Below are positions 2,653-49,848 of a stretch of DNA of 64,000 nt, one piece after another. Each line of letters begins with the position of its first letter. Position 1 is the first letter of the stretch. The position numbers were made by a program, and so were the translations under genes. Source of the DNA: Bacteroidota bacterium (GTDB taxonomy: Bacteria; Bacteroidota; Bacteroidia; Bacteroidales; P3); the NCBI GenBank assembly GCA_017860275.1, contig JAFNAQ010000008.1, positions 1-64,000 on the forward strand, read 5' to 3'. A model generated the notes under the pieces. The model saw only the letters and a list, made by a program, of their open reading frames with translations, was not told the origin of the DNA and did no database searches.

Positions 2653-5084
2653 TGAAAATAAAACATTATAGTTTTCTTATTATCCTTTCTGTTTTTACAA
2701 CATTTATTATATCTAGTTGTAGTCCATATAAGCATATTTCTAAGGATGGCTATCTATTATCTAAAAATAAAGTATACATAGATAATAATATTTTAGAAAA
2801 AGAAGATTTCGTAAATCTGATTAAACAAGATCCTAATGGTACATTCTTGTTTGTAAAATGGAGTATGTATTTTTATAGCCTTTCGGAAAAAGGGGAAGAT
2901 TCAACAGTCAATTTTTTCTCTAGAAATGTTTTTCGAGCTCTTGGGAATAAACCGGTAGAATTTGACCAAAACCTATCGTATATATCAACACAAGAAATGA
3001 ATCGTTACCTTCAAATCAAAGGATGTTTTGATGGCGTAGTTAAAGATAGTATTAAAAATACGACCAAATGGTATAACTCAAAAAAAATTAATCCTAGGAA
3101 AGTAGAAGTAATTTATTATGCGAACACAGGAGAAAGATATAAAATTGATTCTTTTTACATTTCTTATATTGATACCACAATAAAGCCTTCGATAGAAAAG
3201 ATAATGAAGAATTCTACGATAAAAAAGGGAATCTATTATGATGAAAATCTATTCTCATCTGAAAGAGAAAAGTTGGAAAGAAAATTAAGAGAGGAGGGTT
3301 ATTTTGATTTCACAAAGGAGAATATTATTTTTAAAATTGATACAAATAATAATAACCATACAGCAAAGGTAAATCTATTGATTAAATCTCCGAAACTTTC
3401 AAATAATGATTCGTTATTAAATAATAAACATAAGCTTTATAAGATTAGAAGAATATATGTCTACCCTGATTATCAGACACAATTATTAACAAATTCCAAT
3501 ATTGATCTTGATACAAATATATTCTTCCACCGTCAAAAAAAAGATTTTGGGCTAAACCAATACTTTTTTATTACCCCTATTCCTCAGAAAATAAATTCTA
3601 AACCCATATTGAGATGTATAATGTTTCAATATGATAGTCTTTTTTCTCCATTACAATCAGAAAGAACTTATAGTGCATTATCTCAGCTCAAGAATTTTAA
3701 ATTTATTGATATATCATATTCTCCAGTTGAACAGTCATTACTTAGAAGAAAATCTGACACTCTACAATTGGATTGTACAATAAAATTATCTCTATACGAT
3801 CCTCTGCTTTTATCTACCTCTTTGGAAGCTAATTTTTCTGCAGCGACAAATTCACTTACAGATAATAATAATTCTAATTTTGGAATACAATGGAATCTTA
3901 GTCTTCAACATAGAAATATGTTTAAGAATGCAGAAATTTTCTCCTCCAATGCAAAAGTAGCAATTGAAATTAGGAGTGATATTTTTAATATGAATGATAC
4001 GGTAGATTCTTGGTCATTAGTTAATGCATTTGAGACAGGAATAGATTTTGGATTAGAAATACCTAGATTCCTAATCCCATTTGGAACAAGTTTTTATTCA
4101 ATGCAGTTTCTTCCACATACATCAATAAAGAGTGGATACAATTTTCAGAAAAGACCATACTTTGAGCGTTCAATTTTTAATTTGAATTATGGGTATAGTT
4201 GGAATAACAGCAATAAACATAATCATGCCATTATTCCTGTTGAAATTAACTTGGTTAAGATGAAAATAACTAGCCAAGAATATGCAGATTTGATTAAAAC
4301 ATTTGATAAAAGAATGCAATATCAAACCTCTGATCATTTGGTGATGAATACTCGTTATAGTTATTTGTATAATGATCAAGAATTAAATAAAAAGAATGAT
4401 TTTCAGTACTTTAGAATAAATGCTGAAGTTGCTGGTAATTTTCTCTACCTAATGAGCAATATTACTAATTCAGAAAAGAATTTGAACAAGGAGTATACAA
4501 TATTTGGTATTCCTTATGCTCAGTATTTTAGAACTGATTTTGATTATAAGAAATATACATATTTTGACGATAAAAATCTTCTAGTAGTAAGAAGTTTCTT
4601 TGGTTTTGGAGTTCCATACTCTAATGCTAATTCTTTACCATATGAAAAGAGCTTTTTTGGGGGAGGAGCAAATAATTTAAGAGCATGGCAACTAAGAGAG
4701 TTAGGGCCAGGCTCTTCAAAAGTAGATAAATCGCAGTTAAGATATGATCGCTCAGGAGATATATCCTTTGGAGCAAATTTAGAATATCGCTTCCCAATTG
4801 CAGGAGTAATAGAAGGAGCTACATTTATGGATATTGGAAATGTTTGGACCATTAATTATCAGAAGGAAATGGATGGAGGGCAGTTTAAGTTTGATCGTTT
4901 TTATAAAGAAATTGCTGCAGGCATGGGTTTAGGAATAAGATTAAACATTCAGTTCCTTATCATAAGATTAGATTTTGCAATAAAATTGTGGAATCCTGCT
5001 AAGGAATTATCACAAAGGTGGGTACTACCTCATACCAAGCTTACTGACCTAAATGTTAATTTTGGCATAGGATACCCTTTTTAG
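2652..5084 (+). CDS. tamL: TamL-like Omp85 (BamA/TamA superfamily) outer-membrane lipoprotein
   Basis: The 810-residue product starts with a lipoprotein signal (IISSCS, lipidated Cys23). The sequence directly after it (YKHISKDGYLLSKNKVYID) is the typical N terminus of TamL, the lipidated TamA homologue of Bacteroidota. POTRA-type segments fill about residues 30-360 (for example ERTYSALSQLKNFKFIDISY), and the C-terminal half is an Omp85 barrel with the lid-type motif GGGANNLRAWQLRELGPGS and the terminal strands LNVNFGIGYPF. Omp85 proteins insert proteins, or with TamB support lipid transport to the outer membrane. Naming it TamL rather than another Omp85 is inference from the lipobox and N-terminal wording. 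No tamB is in the window. Confidence 0.88.
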   Translation: MKIKHYSFLIILSVFTTFIISSCSPYKHISKDGYLLSKNKVYIDNNILEKEDFVNLIKQDPNGTFLFVKWSMYFYSLSEKGEDSTVNFFSRNVFRALGNKPVEFDQNLSYISTQEMNRYLQIKGCFDGVVKDSIKNTTKWYNSKKINPRKVEVIYYANTGERYKIDSFYISYIDTTIKPSIEKIMKNSTIKKGIYYDENLFSSEREKLERKLREEGYFDFTKENIIFKIDTNNNNHTAKVNLLIKSPKLSNNDSLLNNKHKLYKIRRIYVYPDYQTQLLTNSNIDLDTNIFFHRQKKDFGLNQYFFITPIPQKINSKPILRCIMFQYDSLFSPLQSERTYSALSQLKNFKFIDISYSPVEQSLLRRKSDTLQLDCTIKLSLYDPLLLSTSLEANFSAATNSLTDNNNSNFGIQWNLSLQHRNMFKNAEIFSSNAKVAIEIRSDIFNMNDTVDSWSLVNAFETGIDFGLEIPRFLIPFGTSFYSMQFLPHTSIKSGYNFQKRPYFERSIFNLNYGYSWNNSNKHNHAIIPVEINLVKMKITSQEYADLIKTFDKRMQYQTSDHLVMNTRYSYLYNDQELNKKNDFQYFRINAEVAGNFLYLMSNITNSEKNLNKEYTIFGIPYAQYFRTDFDYKKYTYFDDKNLLVVRSFFGFGVPYSNANSLPYEKSFFGGGANNLRAWQLRELGPGSSKVDKSQLRYDRSGDISFGANLEYRFPIAGVIEGATFMDIGNVWTINYQKEMDGGQFKFDRFYKEIAAGMGLGIRLNIQFLIIRLDFAIKLWNPAKELSQRWVLPHTKLTDLNVNFGIGYPF

Positions 5085-12275: not shown

Positions 12276-12317
12276 AGAGACTGTATTGAATAAACCCTCA
12301 ATACAGTCTCTTTTTTT
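12276..12317 (+). terminator. Rho-independent terminator after the M6 protease pair
   Basis: A perfect 14-bp stem (AGAGACTGTATTGA at 12276-12289 with its complement at 12298-12311) and an 8-nt loop run into seven T residues. Confidence 0.93.
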
Positions 12318-12352
12318 ACCCAAAAAACCAAAATAAATCCAACCATTTTTTG

Positions 12353-12507
12353 TATATTTGCATTATATATTCTCCTTAGGTCGAACACATAGGTTCGCCC
12401 CTACGAACATCCCCAAAAAATTTAGATGCACATCTTAATAAATTATGGTAGGTACCCTAGCACCCGTAGGGTAGCTACCATAACACACCTAGGGTAGCTA
12501 CCCTAGC
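12353..12507 (+). repeat. Palindrome-rich intergenic element, copy A (inverted relative to 30445-30599)
   Basis: In order: a TATATTTG -7-like box (12353-12360); a hairpin GGTCGAAC/GTTCGCCC (12379-12400, one mismatch); and a 99-nt block (12409-12507) found inverted at 30445-30543 with 98/99 identity. Inside the block lie AGATG-CA-CATCT (12424-12435), a 16-bp stem with one mismatch (12444-12459 with 12467-12482, 7-nt loop) and the perfect 18-bp palindrome CTAGGGTAGCTACCCTAG (12489-12506). It has no coding capacity. It fills most of the 403-bp gap 12228-12630. Confidence 0.9.
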
Positions 12508-12570
12508 TTACGACGATATTGTAATAAAATAAGAAAGATAAACACAAATAAAGTAAATAAATATTTAATT

Positions 12571-18395: not shown

Positions 18396-18923
18396 ATGCT
18401 GTACAAAGAAGAAGAAATAAGGAAAAGCCATATTTTTGAAGTAGCAAAGTCTATGATGATTGCTGCTCGTACTGCACCCAAGGCAAGAGGAAAGGATAAT
18501 CTTGTTATCTCTGTTATTACAGGTGATCAGGTAATAGAGCTTTCAAATAAGATGAAAGAAATGTTTGAAGAAAATAATCAAGCTTTCTTCCTTAGAGATT
18601 CTGAAAATATTCTTATCTCTGATGCTGTTGTATTAATTGGGACAAAGCTTGTTGTTGCAGGACTTAATTGTGGGCTTTGTGGTTATCAGACGTGTGAGAA
18701 GAAAGAAGAAAATAAAATATGTCCTTGTGTGTTTAACTCCCACGACCTTGGCATTGCAATAGGAAGTGCAACATCTATTGCAGCAGATAATAGAGTAGAT
18801 AATAGAGTAATGTTTTCGGCAGGTCAAGCGGCAAGGGAATTAGGATTCTTCACAGATGAGATAGGTTTCGGTTTTGCAATACCACTTTCTGCGATGGGCA
18901 AAAACCCATTCTTTGACAGATAA
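18396..18923 (+). CDS. DUF2148-family ferredoxin-domain protein
   Basis: At 175 residues it matches the DUF2148 family found in anaerobes. A conserved cysteine cluster (CGLCGYQTC, then CPC about 14 residues later) is a plausible iron-sulfur ligand set. The C-terminal part (GIAIGSATSIAADNRVDNRVMFSAGQAARELG) is the family's other conserved block. The biochemical role of the family is not established as far as I know. It lies between rdgB (6-bp gap) and serS (13-bp gap). Confidence 0.85.
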   Translation: MLYKEEEIRKSHIFEVAKSMMIAARTAPKARGKDNLVISVITGDQVIELSNKMKEMFEENNQAFFLRDSENILISDAVVLIGTKLVVAGLNCGLCGYQTCEKKEENKICPCVFNSHDLGIAIGSATSIAADNRVDNRVMFSAGQAARELGFFTDEIGFGFAIPLSAMGKNPFFDR

Positions 18924-18936
18924 TAAAATAATATAT

Positions 18937-20211
18937 ATGTTAGAATTAAATAGAATTAGACAGAACAAGGATAAGGTTATTGAACTATTGAAAGTTAAAA
19001 ACCTTAGAGATGCAGAAGAAAAGATAAATGAACTTTTGAATTTAGATGAAGACAAACGTCAAGTTCAAAAAGTTATGGAAGATATTAAAGCCGAGCTTAA
19101 CCTTAAGGCTAAAGAGATTGGCAATATTATGAAACAAGGTTCTAAGGAGCTTGCAGAGAATGCTAAGGCAGAGGTTGCTAAATTAAAAGAAAAAGAAAAG
19201 GATTTAGAAAGGGATATGTCTGACTTTGAAGAAAGACTAAATGCAATATTGCTTTCTATTCCTAACTTACCACATTCATCTGTTCCAAAGGGAAAGAGTG
19301 CAGAGGATAACGAGAATATTCATCAAGAGGGAGAGATTCCTTCTCTTTATGATGGTGCTACTCCTCACTGGGATATTTGTTCAAAATATGATATTGTAGA
19401 CTTTGAATTGGGTACCAAGATAACTGGTGCAGGATTTCCTGTTTACAAAGGCAAGGGAGCTAAGCTTCAACGTGCTTTAATAAACTTCTTCCTCGATGAG
19501 GCTTCAAAGGCTGGCTTCGATGAGGTACAGATTCCATTAATGGTAAACGAGGCATCGGCAATGGCAACAGGTCAATTACCAGATAAGGAAGGTCAGATGT
19601 ATACTATTCCTGTTGATGGTTTTTATATGATTCCAACGGCTGAGGTGCCTGTCACAAATATATTTCGTGATATAATTCTTCAAGAAAAAGAATTCCCTGT
19701 CCGCAAATGTGGTTATTCTCAATGCTTCCGTCGTGAGGCAGGCTCTTATGGAAAGGATGTTAGAGGGTTGAATCGTCTTCATCAATTCGATAAGGTAGAG
19801 ATTGTTTGTATTGAACATCCAGACAGAAGTTATGAGCAATTAGAGAAGATGAAGGAGCATGTTTCTAACCTTCTTAGAAAACTCGAACTTCCGTTTAGAA
19901 TTCTTCGCCTTTGTGGTGGAGATATGAGTTTTACCTCCGCTCTTACATTCGACTTTGAGGTTTATTCTACTGCTCAAGAGCGTTGGTTAGAGGTTAGCTC
20001 AGTTTCAAATTTTGAAACTTATCAATCAAATAGGATGAAACTTAGATTCAAGAACTCAGAGGGTAAGACACAATTAGCTCATACTCTAAATGGTTCTGCT
20101 CTTGCATTACCAAGAATAGTTGCCTCATTACTTGAAAACCACCAAACTCCAGAAGGCATAAGGATTCCAAAGGCTTTAGTCCCATATACAGGATTTGAGA
20201 TATTAAACTAA
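18937..20211 (+). CDS. serS: Serine-tRNA ligase
   Basis: Charges tRNA-Ser in the cytoplasm. The ATG at 18937 is chosen; a longer frame from 18874 overlaps the previous gene, and MLELNRIRQNKDKVIELL is the normal SerRS beginning. Residues about 28-105 form the antiparallel coiled-coil arm (charged heptads, KLKEKEKDLERDMSDFEERL). Class II motifs 2 and 3 follow (FRREAGSYGKDVRGLNRLHQF and NGSALALPRIVASLLENHQ). The resulting 424 residues are standard. A terminator follows at 20245-20274. Confidence 0.97.
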   Translation: MLELNRIRQNKDKVIELLKVKNLRDAEEKINELLNLDEDKRQVQKVMEDIKAELNLKAKEIGNIMKQGSKELAENAKAEVAKLKEKEKDLERDMSDFEERLNAILLSIPNLPHSSVPKGKSAEDNENIHQEGEIPSLYDGATPHWDICSKYDIVDFELGTKITGAGFPVYKGKGAKLQRALINFFLDEASKAGFDEVQIPLMVNEASAMATGQLPDKEGQMYTIPVDGFYMIPTAEVPVTNIFRDIILQEKEFPVRKCGYSQCFRREAGSYGKDVRGLNRLHQFDKVEIVCIEHPDRSYEQLEKMKEHVSNLLRKLELPFRILRLCGGDMSFTSALTFDFEVYSTAQERWLEVSSVSNFETYQSNRMKLRFKNSEGKTQLAHTLNGSALALPRIVASLLENHQTPEGIRIPKALVPYTGFEILN

Positions 20212-25102: not shown

Positions 25103-27592
25103 ATGAAAATCCATTTACAAAATCTACTTATCTTAATTATTGTACAGTTTATTTCTTTTACTTCCTATTCACAAAAACTAGAGGGGAAGATTATTGATGA
25201 AAATAAGAATCCACTTCCTTATGTAAGTGTTCATAAGTTAAATAGCTATATAGGGGGGACAACAAATATTAATGGATATTATTCAATAAACCTTGAAAAA
25301 GGGAAACATATTATTGAATATAGAATGATTGGGTATAAGCCAATAATAGATACTGTATACGTAACAGAAGATAAAATTACCAAAAGAAATCATACTCTTA
25401 AAGAAGAATCGGTAGAATTAAATGCTGTTGAGGTATTATATGGCGAAGACCCAGCTATTCCAATAATAAAGAAAGCAATAGCCAAAAGAGAAGAACATCT
25501 AAACGAAAACAAGACTTACACAAGTCAAAACTTTACAAAGTTAATAGCAAAATTTACTGGGCATAAATTGCCGGATAGGATTATGGGATATAAGCTGCCA
25601 CTTGAGAAAAAACTTGAATTAGACTCTTTGATAAGGTCAGATTATCAGGTAAACGATGGGTACTTTTATACCTCAGAATCAGAGACAAAACTATATAAAG
25701 ACAAAAGCAAGATAAAAGAGATTATGGTATCTTCGAGAGTAAGTGGAGACCCAAAACAGTTTAGTTTCAATTTTAGTCAGAATCATAGTTTGGATTTTTA
25801 CGAAAACCTAATTAATCTCTCCTTCTCGCAAAAGAGTTTTGTATCTCCAATTGCTTCATACGCTATGTCGGATTATAGGTATTTCCTATTAGGAACCTTC
25901 GAAGATAATGGTAATACTATTAATAAAATAAAAGTCGTTCCCAAGAATAGAGCAGCAAATTGTTTCTATGGATATATATATATTATTGATTCCCTTTGGA
26001 GGATTCATAGTGTAGACTTAAATATTACAAAGGATAATAATTTGCTCTTTTTCGATTCAATAAATATCAAACAAAGTTTTACTCTCCTAGAAGGTAATAT
26101 ATGGAAATCCACTTCTAACACTCAAAGGGCTTATTGTAATATTGAGATTATGGGGATGAATATATTCGCAAATTTAGATTTCAACTCTGTTAGTCAGAAC
26201 TTTGATTTTCATCCCATCTTTGAGAAAGACTTTTTTAATAAGGAGCTAATCTCAATAAATAAGGATGCTAACCAAAAAGATAGTTTGTATTGGGAGAAAA
26301 ATAGCCCCTTACCTTCCTCTATCACAGAAAGAGATTTCTATAAATATGAGGATAGTGTATATAGGGTAGATAGTAATACAGATACAATTATTGCAAGGGA
26401 TAAAGTGAGCAATAAATTTAAGTTCTCCAATATTTTTCTTGGCTATACCTATAAGAATACATTAAAGAAAACCTCTCATAGTATTACTCCTTTTGAAAGT
26501 CTTGCCTTTAATACTATTCAAGGATGGAATCTTGGTTTAGGATATAAATATAAGAGAGAAATCTCAGATTCTAGCCAAATCTTCTTTAGTGCAACTCCTC
26601 AATATGGTTTTTCAGATAAGAAGTTTCGTTTTGGGACATATCTGTTCTGGGAATATAATAAGGAAAAGCTTGCTAATATATTTGTCGGAGCAGGAATTAA
26701 TGAGGCAAAGAATATTTCTGGCTATGGAATAAGTACATTCTTTAATACATTCTATAGTGAGCTATTTGGTCAAAACGAGATGAAACTCTATTCTAAGACT
26801 TATTTCTCAATTGGTCATTATCAGGAATTATTCACTGGTCTTAATCTAAAAATTAATTCAGAAATTTCACAAAGAGATGCTCTTACTAATAATACCTCAC
26901 AGAAATGGACAAAGAGAGGTAGGTTTACAAGCAATAACCCTCTTTCTCCAGATAATGATACAAAGGCATTTGAAAGTTCAAGAGCATTAGTATTGGAAGG
27001 AGAGATAATATGGAACCCCTTTATGAAGTATTATTCCCTACCAAATAAGGTTAGGGTAAAATCAAAATTTCCTACCTTTCATCTTCTCTATAAGAAGGCC
27101 TTGCCCATTGAGAATAATTGGGCAAGCTATGACCTTGTTGAGCTAAAGTTAGATTATAATTTGAAATTGGGCAAGATAGGTAATGGAGAATTAATTGCTA
27201 AGGGAGGGAAGTTTCTAAGCACAGGAAATATGATTCTTGCTGACTATAAGCATTATAATGGCAATAGGTTTCATATAGGAATCTTTGGCAATGAGTCTTT
27301 TAGAGTTCTTCCATATTATAAGTTTAGCACAAATAGTTCTTATGTTGAACTTCACTATACTCATAATTTCAATCGTTGGCTTTTTAGTAAACTACCATTA
27401 ATCAAGAAAACAATGCTTTCCGAACAATTTAGTGCACATCTCTTATCAAACGATTTTAAGAATCCATATATGGAAATAAGCTTTGGAGCTGCAAATATAT
27501 TTAAGATAATGTCGCTAAACTATACTTGTGGCTTTCAAAAAGGAGCCAAACCCTATCACGGAGTAACCCTATCTCTCGCAATATCTTTATAA
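25103..27592 (+). CDS. DUF5686 outer-membrane protein with carboxypeptidase-regulatory-like N-terminal domain
   Basis: Signal peptide about 1-23 (ending SYSQ), then a CarboxypepD_reg-like beta-sandwich (about 25-105: GKIIDENKNPLPYVSVHKLNSYIGGTTNINGYYSI). Next comes the DUF5686 signature GEDPAIPIIKKAIAKREEHL (about 117-136) and a long C-terminal barrel ending GVTLSLAISL. At 829 residues it is a full-length member. There is no TonB plug, so it is not a SusC-type receptor. The ECF-type promoter in front suggests control by the sigma factor encoded 5 kb upstream. A terminator follows at 27637-27666. Confidence 0.88.
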   Translation: MKIHLQNLLILIIVQFISFTSYSQKLEGKIIDENKNPLPYVSVHKLNSYIGGTTNINGYYSINLEKGKHIIEYRMIGYKPIIDTVYVTEDKITKRNHTLKEESVELNAVEVLYGEDPAIPIIKKAIAKREEHLNENKTYTSQNFTKLIAKFTGHKLPDRIMGYKLPLEKKLELDSLIRSDYQVNDGYFYTSESETKLYKDKSKIKEIMVSSRVSGDPKQFSFNFSQNHSLDFYENLINLSFSQKSFVSPIASYAMSDYRYFLLGTFEDNGNTINKIKVVPKNRAANCFYGYIYIIDSLWRIHSVDLNITKDNNLLFFDSINIKQSFTLLEGNIWKSTSNTQRAYCNIEIMGMNIFANLDFNSVSQNFDFHPIFEKDFFNKELISINKDANQKDSLYWEKNSPLPSSITERDFYKYEDSVYRVDSNTDTIIARDKVSNKFKFSNIFLGYTYKNTLKKTSHSITPFESLAFNTIQGWNLGLGYKYKREISDSSQIFFSATPQYGFSDKKFRFGTYLFWEYNKEKLANIFVGAGINEAKNISGYGISTFFNTFYSELFGQNEMKLYSKTYFSIGHYQELFTGLNLKINSEISQRDALTNNTSQKWTKRGRFTSNNPLSPDNDTKAFESSRALVLEGEIIWNPFMKYYSLPNKVRVKSKFPTFHLLYKKALPIENNWASYDLVELKLDYNLKLGKIGNGELIAKGGKFLSTGNMILADYKHYNGNRFHIGIFGNESFRVLPYYKFSTNSSYVELHYTHNFNRWLFSKLPLIKKTMLSEQFSAHLLSNDFKNPYMEISFGAANIFKIMSLNYTCGFQKGAKPYHGVTLSLAISL

Positions 27593-27632
27593 TTTTTATT
27601 TGAAATAAATCTACTGAATCCTTATTTTGTTC
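27593..27632 (-). repeat. Dispersed 40-nt hairpin module, copy 1
   Basis: Read on the minus strand it begins GAACAAAATAAGGATTCAG and contains TTTATTT-C-AAATAAA. It matches 48703-48742 (plus strand) at 36/40 positions and 30361-30400 (minus strand) at about 34/40. It lies immediately after the stop codon of the DUF5686 gene. Confidence 0.7.
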
Positions 27633-30316: not shown

Positions 30317-30360
30317 ATAATTAAAGATTAATTCTTTCGGAGTGATTAGATTTTGATGTA

Positions 30361-30400
30361 TTTTTATTTGATATAATTCTCCTGAATCCTTGTATTATTC
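30361..30400 (-). repeat. Dispersed 40-nt hairpin module, copy 2
   Basis: On the minus strand it reads GGATTCAGGAGAATTATATC in its middle and matches 48703-48742 at about 34/40 positions. It is downstream, on the minus strand, of the 30445-30599 element. A separate 9-bp inverted repeat TAAATCCTT/AAGGATTTA (30404-30412 with 30431-30439) stands between them. Confidence 0.65.
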
Positions 30401-30444
30401 TCGTAAATCCTTGATTTTATCTTTTTTTATAAGGATTTATTCTT

Positions 30445-30599
30445 GCTAGGGTAGCTACCCTAGGTGTGTTGTGGTAGCTACCCTACGGGTGCTAGGGTAC
30501 CTACCATAATTTATTAAGATGTGCATCTAAATTTTTTGGGGATTGTTTTTAGGGCGCAGGCAAACAGCGCCCGTACATTGAATTTGTATTGCAAATATA
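30445..30599 (-). repeat. Palindrome-rich intergenic element, copy B
   Basis: Minus-strand order: TATATTTG box (30599-30592); hairpin GGGCGC/GCGCCC (30572-30552); 99-nt block (30543-30445) matching 12409-12507 with a single T/C difference. Box-to-block distance (48 nt) and hairpin-to-block distance (8 nt) are identical in the two copies, although the hairpin sequences differ. No ORF is evident. It fills most of the 368-bp gap 30255-30622. Confidence 0.9.
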
Positions 30600-30622
30600 C
30601 GAAAAAATATTGGTTTTTCTTC

Positions 30623-48403: not shown

Positions 48404-48436
48404 AAAAACGCAGAAGGAAAACCCTTCTGCGTTTTT
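48404..48436 (+). terminator. Rho-independent terminator after rng
   Basis: AAAAACGCAGAAGG (48404-48417) pairs with CCTTCTGCGTTTTT (48423-48436), a perfect 14-bp stem, followed by more T. Confidence 0.92.
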
Positions 48437-48593
48437 CTTTTTTAAAGAATAATGCCCTTCCAAAAACGCAGAAAATAATTAATAACCATACTCCATAATC
48501 CAATTAAAAACCGTATATTTGTACTATATATCCGAAGGTGCGATTCAACGTATTTGCTCCATTCAAAAACAAAATCAAAAATTCCTTAAATAA

Positions 48594-48662
48594 AAATGAT
48601 GTACATCTTTCATAGTAAATGATGTGCATCATTTGTATTAATTGATGTGCATCATTTGCATA
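48594..48662 (+). repeat. Three 23-nt tandem palindromic units
   Basis: Units start at 48594, 48617 and 48640. The second and third share ATGTGCATCATTTG and are near-palindromic (ATGATG-TG-CATCAT); the first is degenerate (ATGATGTACATCTTT). The core resembles AGATG-CA-CATCT of the 99-nt block. Confidence 0.85.
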
Positions 48663-48702
48663 TTAAATCGCCGATTTAATAGTTCAAATCAGCTATTCCT
48701 AA

Positions 48703-48742
48703 GAACAAAATAAAGATTCAGGAGATTTATATCAAATATAAA
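48703..48742 (+). repeat. Dispersed 40-nt hairpin module, copy 3
   Basis: It starts GAACAAAATAAAGATTCAGG and matches the reverse complements of 27593-27632 (36/40) and 30361-30400 (about 34/40). Its 3' part forms the hairpin described at 48723. Confidence 0.75.
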
Positions 48743-48755
48743 TCTAGGTTTTTTT
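48723..48755 (+). terminator. Terminator-like hairpin in the composite element
   Basis: A perfect 9-bp stem AGATTTATA/TATAAATCT (48723-48731 with 48737-48745), then AGG and seven T. No plus-strand gene ends here, since rng already has its own terminator 290 bp upstream, so it would serve a transcript starting inside the gap. Confidence 0.65.
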
Positions 48756-48790: not shown

Positions 48791-48798
48791 TAACTTTG
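48791..48798 (+). promoter_or_regulatory. -7 promoter box for the gldB-like gene
   Basis: TAACTTTG, 21 bp before the ATG at 48820. Confidence 0.5.
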
Positions 48799-48819: not shown

Positions 48820-49848
48820 ATGAGAAAGATATTTTTATTAATAATAATTGCCACATTGGGCATTGCTTCTTGCGGGAAGAAGGATAAGGTTAAGCTAATT
48901 GACGATAAGACAGGCAAAGAAGTTACTATCAAGGTTAATAGGTTTGAAGATGTATTATTTGACCAAAGCCAGAAGGATTTAAGGTCTCATCTGCAAAAGA
49001 ATTTTGAGGCATATAAACCTCTATTCAATACAAGCTTGGATAACCCTGAGTACTATGAAATGATTAGATCTTTTGCTCAAGATACAGTTATGATATCTAC
49101 CTATAAACAAGTAAAACAAATATACCCAAGCCTTGATTGGGTAAGTGAAGATATAACAAGTTCATTCGCTAGACTAAAGGAGCAATATCCAAAACTTCTT
49201 ATTCCAAAACTATATTCTTTAATATTAGGACCAGCCGACTTTTCCTACGCATATGGTTCGAGAGTAATCACAAGACCAGACTTTATTACCTTTGCCATAG
49301 ACCTATATTCAATAAATAGCTTTAAGAATAATAAATACTACGCTCATTTCCCTAAATATATATGCAAGATGTTGGACTCAAATAATATTGTTCCAGATAT
49401 TATGCTTTCGTATATAAGAAATGTTGCAACAATAGAAACCCCACTGGCAGAAGAAAAATCAAATGCAAGCCTTGTAGAGATAATGATTGAAAGAGGTAAG
49501 TTTATTTACGCAGCACAAAATATTTTACCCTCTTATGAGTTAAGAAGTATTCTGCGATATAATAAGGAAGAGATGGATTGGGCTGTTAAGAATGAATTTA
49601 AGATTTGGGCATATCTTACTCAGAACAGATTACTTTTTGAGAAAGATAGAACAAAGTATATGAACTTTATTGTAGAGGCTCCATCGACAAAGGGAATAGA
49701 AGGCTCGCCTGCAAGACTTGGAGAATATATAGGATATAAGATTGTAGAAAAATATATGGATAAGAAGGGTGTTTCTTTGAAAGAACTTTTGGAGACTACC
49801 GATGCAGAAAAGATTCTTAGAGAATCGGGATATAAACCTAAGAAATAA
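48820..49848 (+). CDS. GldB-like lipoprotein
   Basis: A 342-residue lipoprotein (GIASCG, Cys18). The mature part has the layout of the GldB family: VNRFEDVLFDQ near the N terminus, a middle block ITFAIDLYSINSFKNNKYYAHFPKYICKMLDSNNIVPDIM, and the C-terminal SPARLGEYIGYKIVEKYMDKKG. GldB is needed for gliding in Flavobacterium, but homologues are widespread in non-gliding Bacteroidota, so motility should not be assumed. First of a four-gene run with the sulfatase, lipid kinase and SUI1 genes. Confidence 0.82.
   Translation: MRKIFLLIIIATLGIASCGKKDKVKLIDDKTGKEVTIKVNRFEDVLFDQSQKDLRSHLQKNFEAYKPLFNTSLDNPEYYEMIRSFAQDTVMISTYKQVKQIYPSLDWVSEDITSSFARLKEQYPKLLIPKLYSLILGPADFSYAYGSRVITRPDFITFAIDLYSINSFKNNKYYAHFPKYICKMLDSNNIVPDIMLSYIRNVATIETPLAEEKSNASLVEIMIERGKFIYAAQNILPSYELRSILRYNKEEMDWAVKNEFKIWAYLTQNRLLFEKDRTKYMNFIVEAPSTKGIEGSPARLGEYIGYKIVEKYMDKKGVSLKELLETTDAEKILRESGYKPKK

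Follow-up and report, generated by a model that had tools for sequence, protein, structure and literature searches.

A candidate multicopy family of structured noncoding RNAs with complementary 23-nt repeats in one Bacteroidales genus

The element under study, at 48513-48755 (+) of the window (the whole 64,000-nt stretch of contig JAFNAQ010000008.1 of Bacteroidota bacterium that was analysed), is best explained as the gene of a structured noncoding RNA that belongs to a multicopy family of one Bacteroidales genus and probably acts in trans. Judged from the sequences, we put the probability of this reading at about 0.5, and the element family is probably a new one. The genome that carries the window (the own genome) is a Bacteroidales draft of 2.93 Mb in 111 contigs. 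From 5' to 3', the element consists of GTATATTTG, a leader with a weak hairpin, an array of three GATGYRCATC units, an AT-rich tail and a GATTCAGGAG module, and its parts and upstream border are as follows.

48404-48436 (+): terminator of the upstream gene (rng in the naming of the earlier reader), outside the element
48513-48521 (+): GTATATTTG, with a second occurrence at 30600-30592 (-)
48514-48521 (+): promoter -7 box TATATTTG of this D copy, letters checked
48534-48564 (+): weak leader hairpin of the predicted fold, letters varying among copies
48598-48607 (+): repeat unit 1, GATGTACATC, the partner of unit 2 in the predicted fold
48621-48630 (+): repeat unit 2, GATGTGCATC, covarying with unit 1
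48644-48653 (+): repeat unit 3, GATGTGCATC, the alternative partner of unit 1, with which it covaries
48704-48743 (+): 3' module with GATTCAGGAG, 34/40 identical to that of the 30.4 kb copy
48722-48755 (+): possible terminator peculiar to this copy, an AT-rich hairpin with T7 behind it, found by script and without a listing in a stricter scan

Two further copies and one isolated module lie elsewhere in the window. Units P1 to P3 of both copies are of the P type (GGTAGSTACC), as distinct from the D type (GATGYRCATC) of the element at 48.6 kb.

30360-30600 (-): P-type copy, with its box at 30599-30592 and its 3' module at 30399-30360
30572-30552 (-): leader hairpin of the 30.4 kb copy, REP-like
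30527-30518 (-): GATGCACATC unit of the 30.4 kb copy
30505-30496, 30482-30473 and 30459-30450 (-): units P1, P2 and P3 of the 30.4 kb copy, P1 pairing with P2 in the predicted fold
12353-12534 (+): second P-type copy, without the GATTCAGGAG module, with its box at 12353-12360 and GATGCACATC at 12425-12434
12447-12456, 12470-12479 and 12493-12502 (+): units P1, P2 and P3 of the 12.3 kb copy
27592-27632 (-): 3' module by itself

The original prediction had joined the loci at 48.6 and 30.4 kb by a box, palindromes and a 3' module held in common. The box is indeed common to both (GTATATTTG at 48513-48521 (+) and 30600-30592 (-)), and the identity given for the 40-nt GATTCAGGAG module, about 34/40, proved exact (48704-48743 against 30399-30360). 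The palindromes are not the same: the 48.6 kb locus has three GATGYRCATC units, whereas the 30.4 kb array has one GATGCACATC and then three units of the GGTAGSTACC type that keep to the same 23-nt register. The 27-nt core of the 3' module had three matches in the window and none in 100 shuffles. A strict scan for three-unit palindrome arrays with a period of 20-26 nt, a criterion that missed the 30.4 kb array, found two arrays in the window (12.4 and 48.6 kb) and none in shuffled controls. The leader of the 12.3 kb copy contains a GTAG-headed, REP-like palindrome (12379-12404 (-)), which several other own copies also carry in either orientation.

The family is larger than the original prediction saw. 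BLAST with each copy gave about 35 intergenic copies in the own genome, 15 of the D type and 20 of the P type and 12353-12534 (+) among them, in a tally that was merged by hand and in which some copies are cut by contig ends. An additional own D copy, C53:19237, was found with a covariance model; on that contig (L036, G000:C53) a P copy at 18875-19111 is directly followed by the D match at 19237-19314, forming a tandem pair. Copies are interrupted by contig ends of the own assembly at G000:C36:1-103, C29:251094-251217, C45:1-160, C5:19458-19597, C61:4772-4913 and C45:14301-14394, and the true copy number may therefore differ.

D copies were found by BLAST in 8/10 genomes of the same genus and in 0/90 other relatives. 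The D covariance model, whose match counts cover the two strands together owing to the near symmetry of the repeat, matched 10/11 genus genomes (own included) and had no match in the genus genome G001. The P type was found in the own genome only (1/101 genomes). At least 106 stretches in named genomes carried the exact D pattern, and among the matches listed were ten Bacteroidales metagenome assemblies, including UBA5515, UBA4866, UBA4893, CTSoil_023, AS08sgBPME_458 and STF2_138. The exact D pattern had no match in viral contigs, and a phage origin is without support.

Across the order, the covariance model had matches in 14/393 genomes, own included. Sixteen of these loci were inspected, of which about eight look like tandem arrays by eye; a scripted count gave at least three units in 4/16, one of them resembling a terminator, and in 3/16 a box lay no more than 140 nt away on one side. 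Outside the genus, some tandem GATG..CATC arrays occur that lack a consistent promoter layout. The promoter-led unit may therefore be an invention of the genus on top of an older repeat. The strict array scan, applied to 400 kb from three other Bacteroidales genomes, found one array in other letters. It lies at about 8568 of L247, from another Bacteroidales genome, and has three palindrome units of unrelated letters (GTCGGTCC.GACCGA type).

The housekeeping sigma factor of Bacteroides is described as having the -7 consensus TAnnTTTG (PMC7366714). A TA[TC]NTTTG box was present upstream, on at least one strand, in 88/106 of the D-pattern loci listed, compared with 215/2120 (10.1%) control windows; at 7 of the 18 boxless loci, one orientation runs beyond the contig end. 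The box also recurred in 28/32 own copies that retain the 5' part. In a box-anchored alignment of 30 own copies, the letters flanking the box on either side dropped to background (the 5' comparison took in 30/35 own copies and the 3' comparison 22), and in this set the identity of the box is given by construction while the flanking drop is not. The conserved array begins 76-114 nt past the box, and the letters between the two are not common among own copies.

The leader-repeats-tail layout recurs in 105 D copies, among which GATG and CATC are nearly invariant. The centre of unit 1 was CA in 80/105 D copies and the centres of units 2 and 3 were TG in 55/105 and 60/105, respectively; a second look at the unit centres took in 95/105 D copies. 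The 13-nt linkers between units are kept among copies, unlike the unique spacers of a CRISPR array, and that candidate was rejected.

Since the copies are related, the shuffle counts and the fold and stem statistics reported here are not probabilities. Covariation was scored in an alignment of 44 D copies (A4, thinned from 64) against 500 shuffles. Hairpin 1-2 was paired in 92.6% of cells and scored 0.099 compared with 0.079 in the shuffles, of which 4/500 were as high, and hairpin 1-3 scored 0.088 compared with 0.058 (0/500). Hairpin 2-3 was discarded as the conserved hairpin, as its covariation in the same alignment was not above the shuffles (0.092 compared with 0.095, 300/500). The palindromes within units scored below the shuffles (0.050 compared with 0.074, 500/500), and the DNA palindrome was accordingly rejected as the selected unit. 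RNAalifold chose hairpin 1-2, with two compensated pairs, in group A and preferred hairpin 2-3 to 1-2 in group B; alignments A2 and A3 held 18/19 and 29/36 prepared references, respectively, and were hand-picked. The repeats gave mean folding z values of -7.6 (36 copies) and -6.9 (20 copies). Fold prediction for the 48.6 kb copy joins unit 1 to unit 2, that for the 30.4 kb copy joins P1 to P2, and the P array rebuilds the hairpin of the D type in different letters. The repeats thus behave like RNA and not like DNA palindromes: both unit 2 and unit 3 covary with unit 1, symmetry within a unit falls short of chance, and P rebuilds the hairpin.

The leader hairpin appears less secure than the repeat hairpins. 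Predicted folds of the relatives' leaders had mean z values of -1.08 (36) and -1.69 (20). The best stems of 37 distinct leaders, drawn from the 47/105 copies with the loop motif, averaged 4.76 bp compared with 4.24 bp with exchanged partners (0/500).

Two own copies, one of type P and one of type D, have their upstream parts in common: window positions 12276-12369 and G000:C50:4953-5046 are 82% identical through an upstream terminator, a spacer and the box. After the box, the C50 D copy and the 12.3 kb P copy diverge into different leaders and arrays. The common upstream part points to an exchange of arrays behind a kept promoter.

Rates of change were obtained from 33/44 orthologue pairs, some of them on a common locus; zero counts for the box and repeats in this set are biased by the way loci were found and were set aside. 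Background change amounted to 8.1% (894/10980) in the far upstream flank and 8.4% (719/8568) in the far downstream flank. Neither the leader (9.3%, 250/2688) nor the tail (8.6%, 178/2076) changed more slowly than this, and the linkers changed at 4.5% (38/845). Unit 1 had 0/200 changes in 25 orthologue pairs chosen for units 2-3 that meet the search pattern, and unit 3 had 13/240 changes in 30 pairs chosen in the same way on units 1-2. By these counts unit 1 is clearly under constraint, unit 3 is less so, and the leader and tail are not. Alignments of at least 700 nt between orthologues of different genomes ran through the element at 67/106 of the D-pattern loci listed, after one pair within a single genome was excluded. 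Neither empty sites nor target duplications were found in the rng, 30 kb and 12 kb regions, which were compared with one genome per species and are hardly syntenic in the genus.

Open reading frames of at least 80 aa were overlapped by 0/35 own copies and by 4/90 relative copies, the latter being those of 97 entries that passed a filter on the box and first unit. Where both flanks were known, the next gene was codirectional in 22/26 own copies and on the other strand in 4/26; the corresponding counts for the relatives were 45/69 and 24/69. The 24 relative copies that face a gene on the opposite strand do not lead into the next gene, which argues against a general role as its leader. One UBA5515 copy is flanked by a divergently oriented RRM gene and, on its other side, by a convergent gene. 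The RRM-protein gene, of about 106 aa (3967-4287 (-) of L097, with the element at 4698), is the divergent neighbor in three species, and by coordinates the same pair occurs at G007:C24:32800-33006 and G010:C25:25297-25503. These pairs represent one ancestral site and are therefore a lead only. One RRM gene per genome was present in 11/11 genus genomes, including those where elements are few or absent.

The hairpin and T7 that the original prediction took for a proper terminator are present at 48.6 kb, but the stem has one G-C pair, read from the letters, with the T run beginning three bases later, and a scan that required three G-C pairs did not list it. The script found a hairpin with a T run in 1/19 tails, and for this reason a complete transcription unit does not hold as a trait of the family. 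The broader picture of an ORF-less family of about 230 nt with a promoter box was supported by the many copies, the conserved order of parts, the conserved hairpin and the box, but the modules also occur apart: the 3' module stands without the 5' part at 27.6 kb, and some copies have the 5' part and array with a different tail. The modules do occur independently, which the prediction had regarded as telling against it if their places were random, but the places are not random, with 0/35 own copies overlapping an ORF. The separate terminator that it assigned to rng was recovered (48404-48436). At three loci from as many species (L187, L190 and L192, from G003, G004 and G009), tail-like 22-nt repeats that lack box and GATG units come after the rng terminator, as seen by eye.

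The element had also been placed outside the described RNA families, and Rfam agreed: nothing in the whole window reached the gathering score, and the sub-threshold matches were far under the cut-offs. The literature, as far as the partial texts and titles at hand extend, held no description of the element beyond the related cases of BrickBuilt and FopS, and a search on the motif letters returned, among the matches listed, primers that are apparently unrelated by title. BrickBuilt is described as a minisatellite/MITE of Porphyromonas gingivalis, of the order Bacteroidales, with 23-nt tandem repeats between a leader and a tail, 19 intergenic copies, promoter activity, hairpins, no Rfam match, 1 to 22.8 repeats per copy and IS5-type terminal repeats (PMC4596501). 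The present element is similar in its tandem 23-nt repeats between leader and tail (48598/48621/48644 and 30505/30482/30459), its hairpins, its lack of an Rfam match, its Bacteroidales host and its intergenic position (0/35 own and 4/90 relative copies overlapping an ORF of at least 80 aa). It differs in having three units in the copies laid out by eye, where BrickBuilt varies in repeat number, and in that the BrickBuilt terminal inverted repeat, GAGACCTTCGCA, was not found at the element; allowing two mismatches, GAGACCTTCGCA had five matches in the window (1.93 expected), none of them at an element. The comparison is one of plan, as that source gives the BrickBuilt repeat letters only as a figure (PMC4596501).

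FopS RNAs of Bacteroides thetaiotaomicron are described as 14 paralogous sRNAs (12-15 per genome) that are mostly intergenic, have canonical sigma-ABfr promoters, measure about 65-70 nt, carry a common 5' seed and are bound by RbpB (PMC11697453). The present family is likewise multicopy and has a sigma-ABfr box (about 35 copies, with the box in 28/32 that keep the 5' part), but its members are about 230 nt long with three complementary 23-nt repeats, and their leaders are not common among copies as the FopS seed is; these likenesses and differences are drawn from the published description.

In the mechanism that we propose, a housekeeping-type promoter (TAnnTTTG box) would start an RNA of about 200 nt made up of a 5' hairpin of variable letters, three repeats in a 23-nt register and an AT-rich tail. 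At the level of sequence and covariation, the complementarity of unit 1 to units 2 and 3 gives two mutually exclusive long hairpins. The RNA may switch between hairpins 1-2 and 1-3, and either choice would free one repeat. The repeats could serve as several equal binding sites for an RNA-binding protein or for target RNAs, and the analogy with the paralogous FopS RNAs of Bacteroides points to action in trans. Copies would have spread, many being inherited in place since then, and in the own lineage P arrays occupy the place that D arrays have in other copies, with the fold retained.

An alternative is a BrickBuilt-like minisatellite/MITE: the element would be a dispersed DNA repeat of the non-autonomous kind, and its promoter and hairpins would have arisen as by-products of how it spreads. 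The 23-nt period, the leader-repeat-tail plan and the intergenic sites are those of BrickBuilt, the modules are found apart, several own copies are at contig ends as is usual for repeats, P has expanded in a single lineage, and leader and tail change at the background rate. We nonetheless hold this explanation to be rather unlikely. The BrickBuilt terminal repeat is absent at the element, the three regions tried yielded no empty site or target duplication (although they are hardly syntenic), unit 1 had 0/200 changes against a background of about 8%, and many copies have been kept in place between species.

A dimeric protein that binds the arrays as DNA sites, with a promoter that the sites regulate or that is unrelated to them, would account for the near invariance of GATG and CATC in 105 copies and for the GATG..CATC arrays that lack the promoter layout in other families, where the model itself selects these letters. 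Such sites are an improbable explanation given that within-unit symmetry is under the shuffles, that CA or TG, which are not self-complementary, stand at most unit centres, and that P replaces the site letters entirely. Equally improbable is that the element acts in cis on the next gene, as a leader or attenuator toggling between hairpins 1-2 and 1-3: in 24/69 relative copies the gene ahead is on the opposite strand, the UBA5515 copy beside the RRM gene faces a convergent gene, and the gene at 48820 has its own box, TAACTTTG, at 48791-48798, even though both alternative hairpins are supported and the next gene is codirectional in 22/26 own and 45/69 relative copies.

The reading as a family of structured RNA genes could be taken further, to a new bacterial RNA class with dozens of promoter-driven paralogues per genome that act as a three-repeat, two-state switch and whose letters are exchangeable from D to P with the fold kept. 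This extension is tentative, and we regard it as possible rather than probable; if it is true, recognition would depend on shape or on a partner that co-evolves, and not on sequence. With its exchange of D for P, the family provides a natural experiment in which shape can be weighed against sequence. If transcribed, the copies would be a large paralogous set of RNA genes in one genus, with a conserved structure and no Rfam family, and a test case for the spread and conservation of multicopy RNAs. Transcription would also connect BrickBuilt-type minisatellites with RNA structure and not with transposition alone.

GTAG-tagged REP palindromes are listed for phyla other than Bacteroidetes in the part of the source available (PMC3733652). 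Some leaders of the own genome are GTAG-headed palindromes of similar form (e.g., 12404-12379 (-)), differing in that they make up the leader part only and are absent from the relatives' leaders inspected. An origin from a REP/RAYT system was rejected, as the own genome had no match to a Y1 transposase and the relatives' leaders are without REP. Within STF2_138, a 1480-nt stretch that includes the element is duplicated with 87% identity (L105 and L118).
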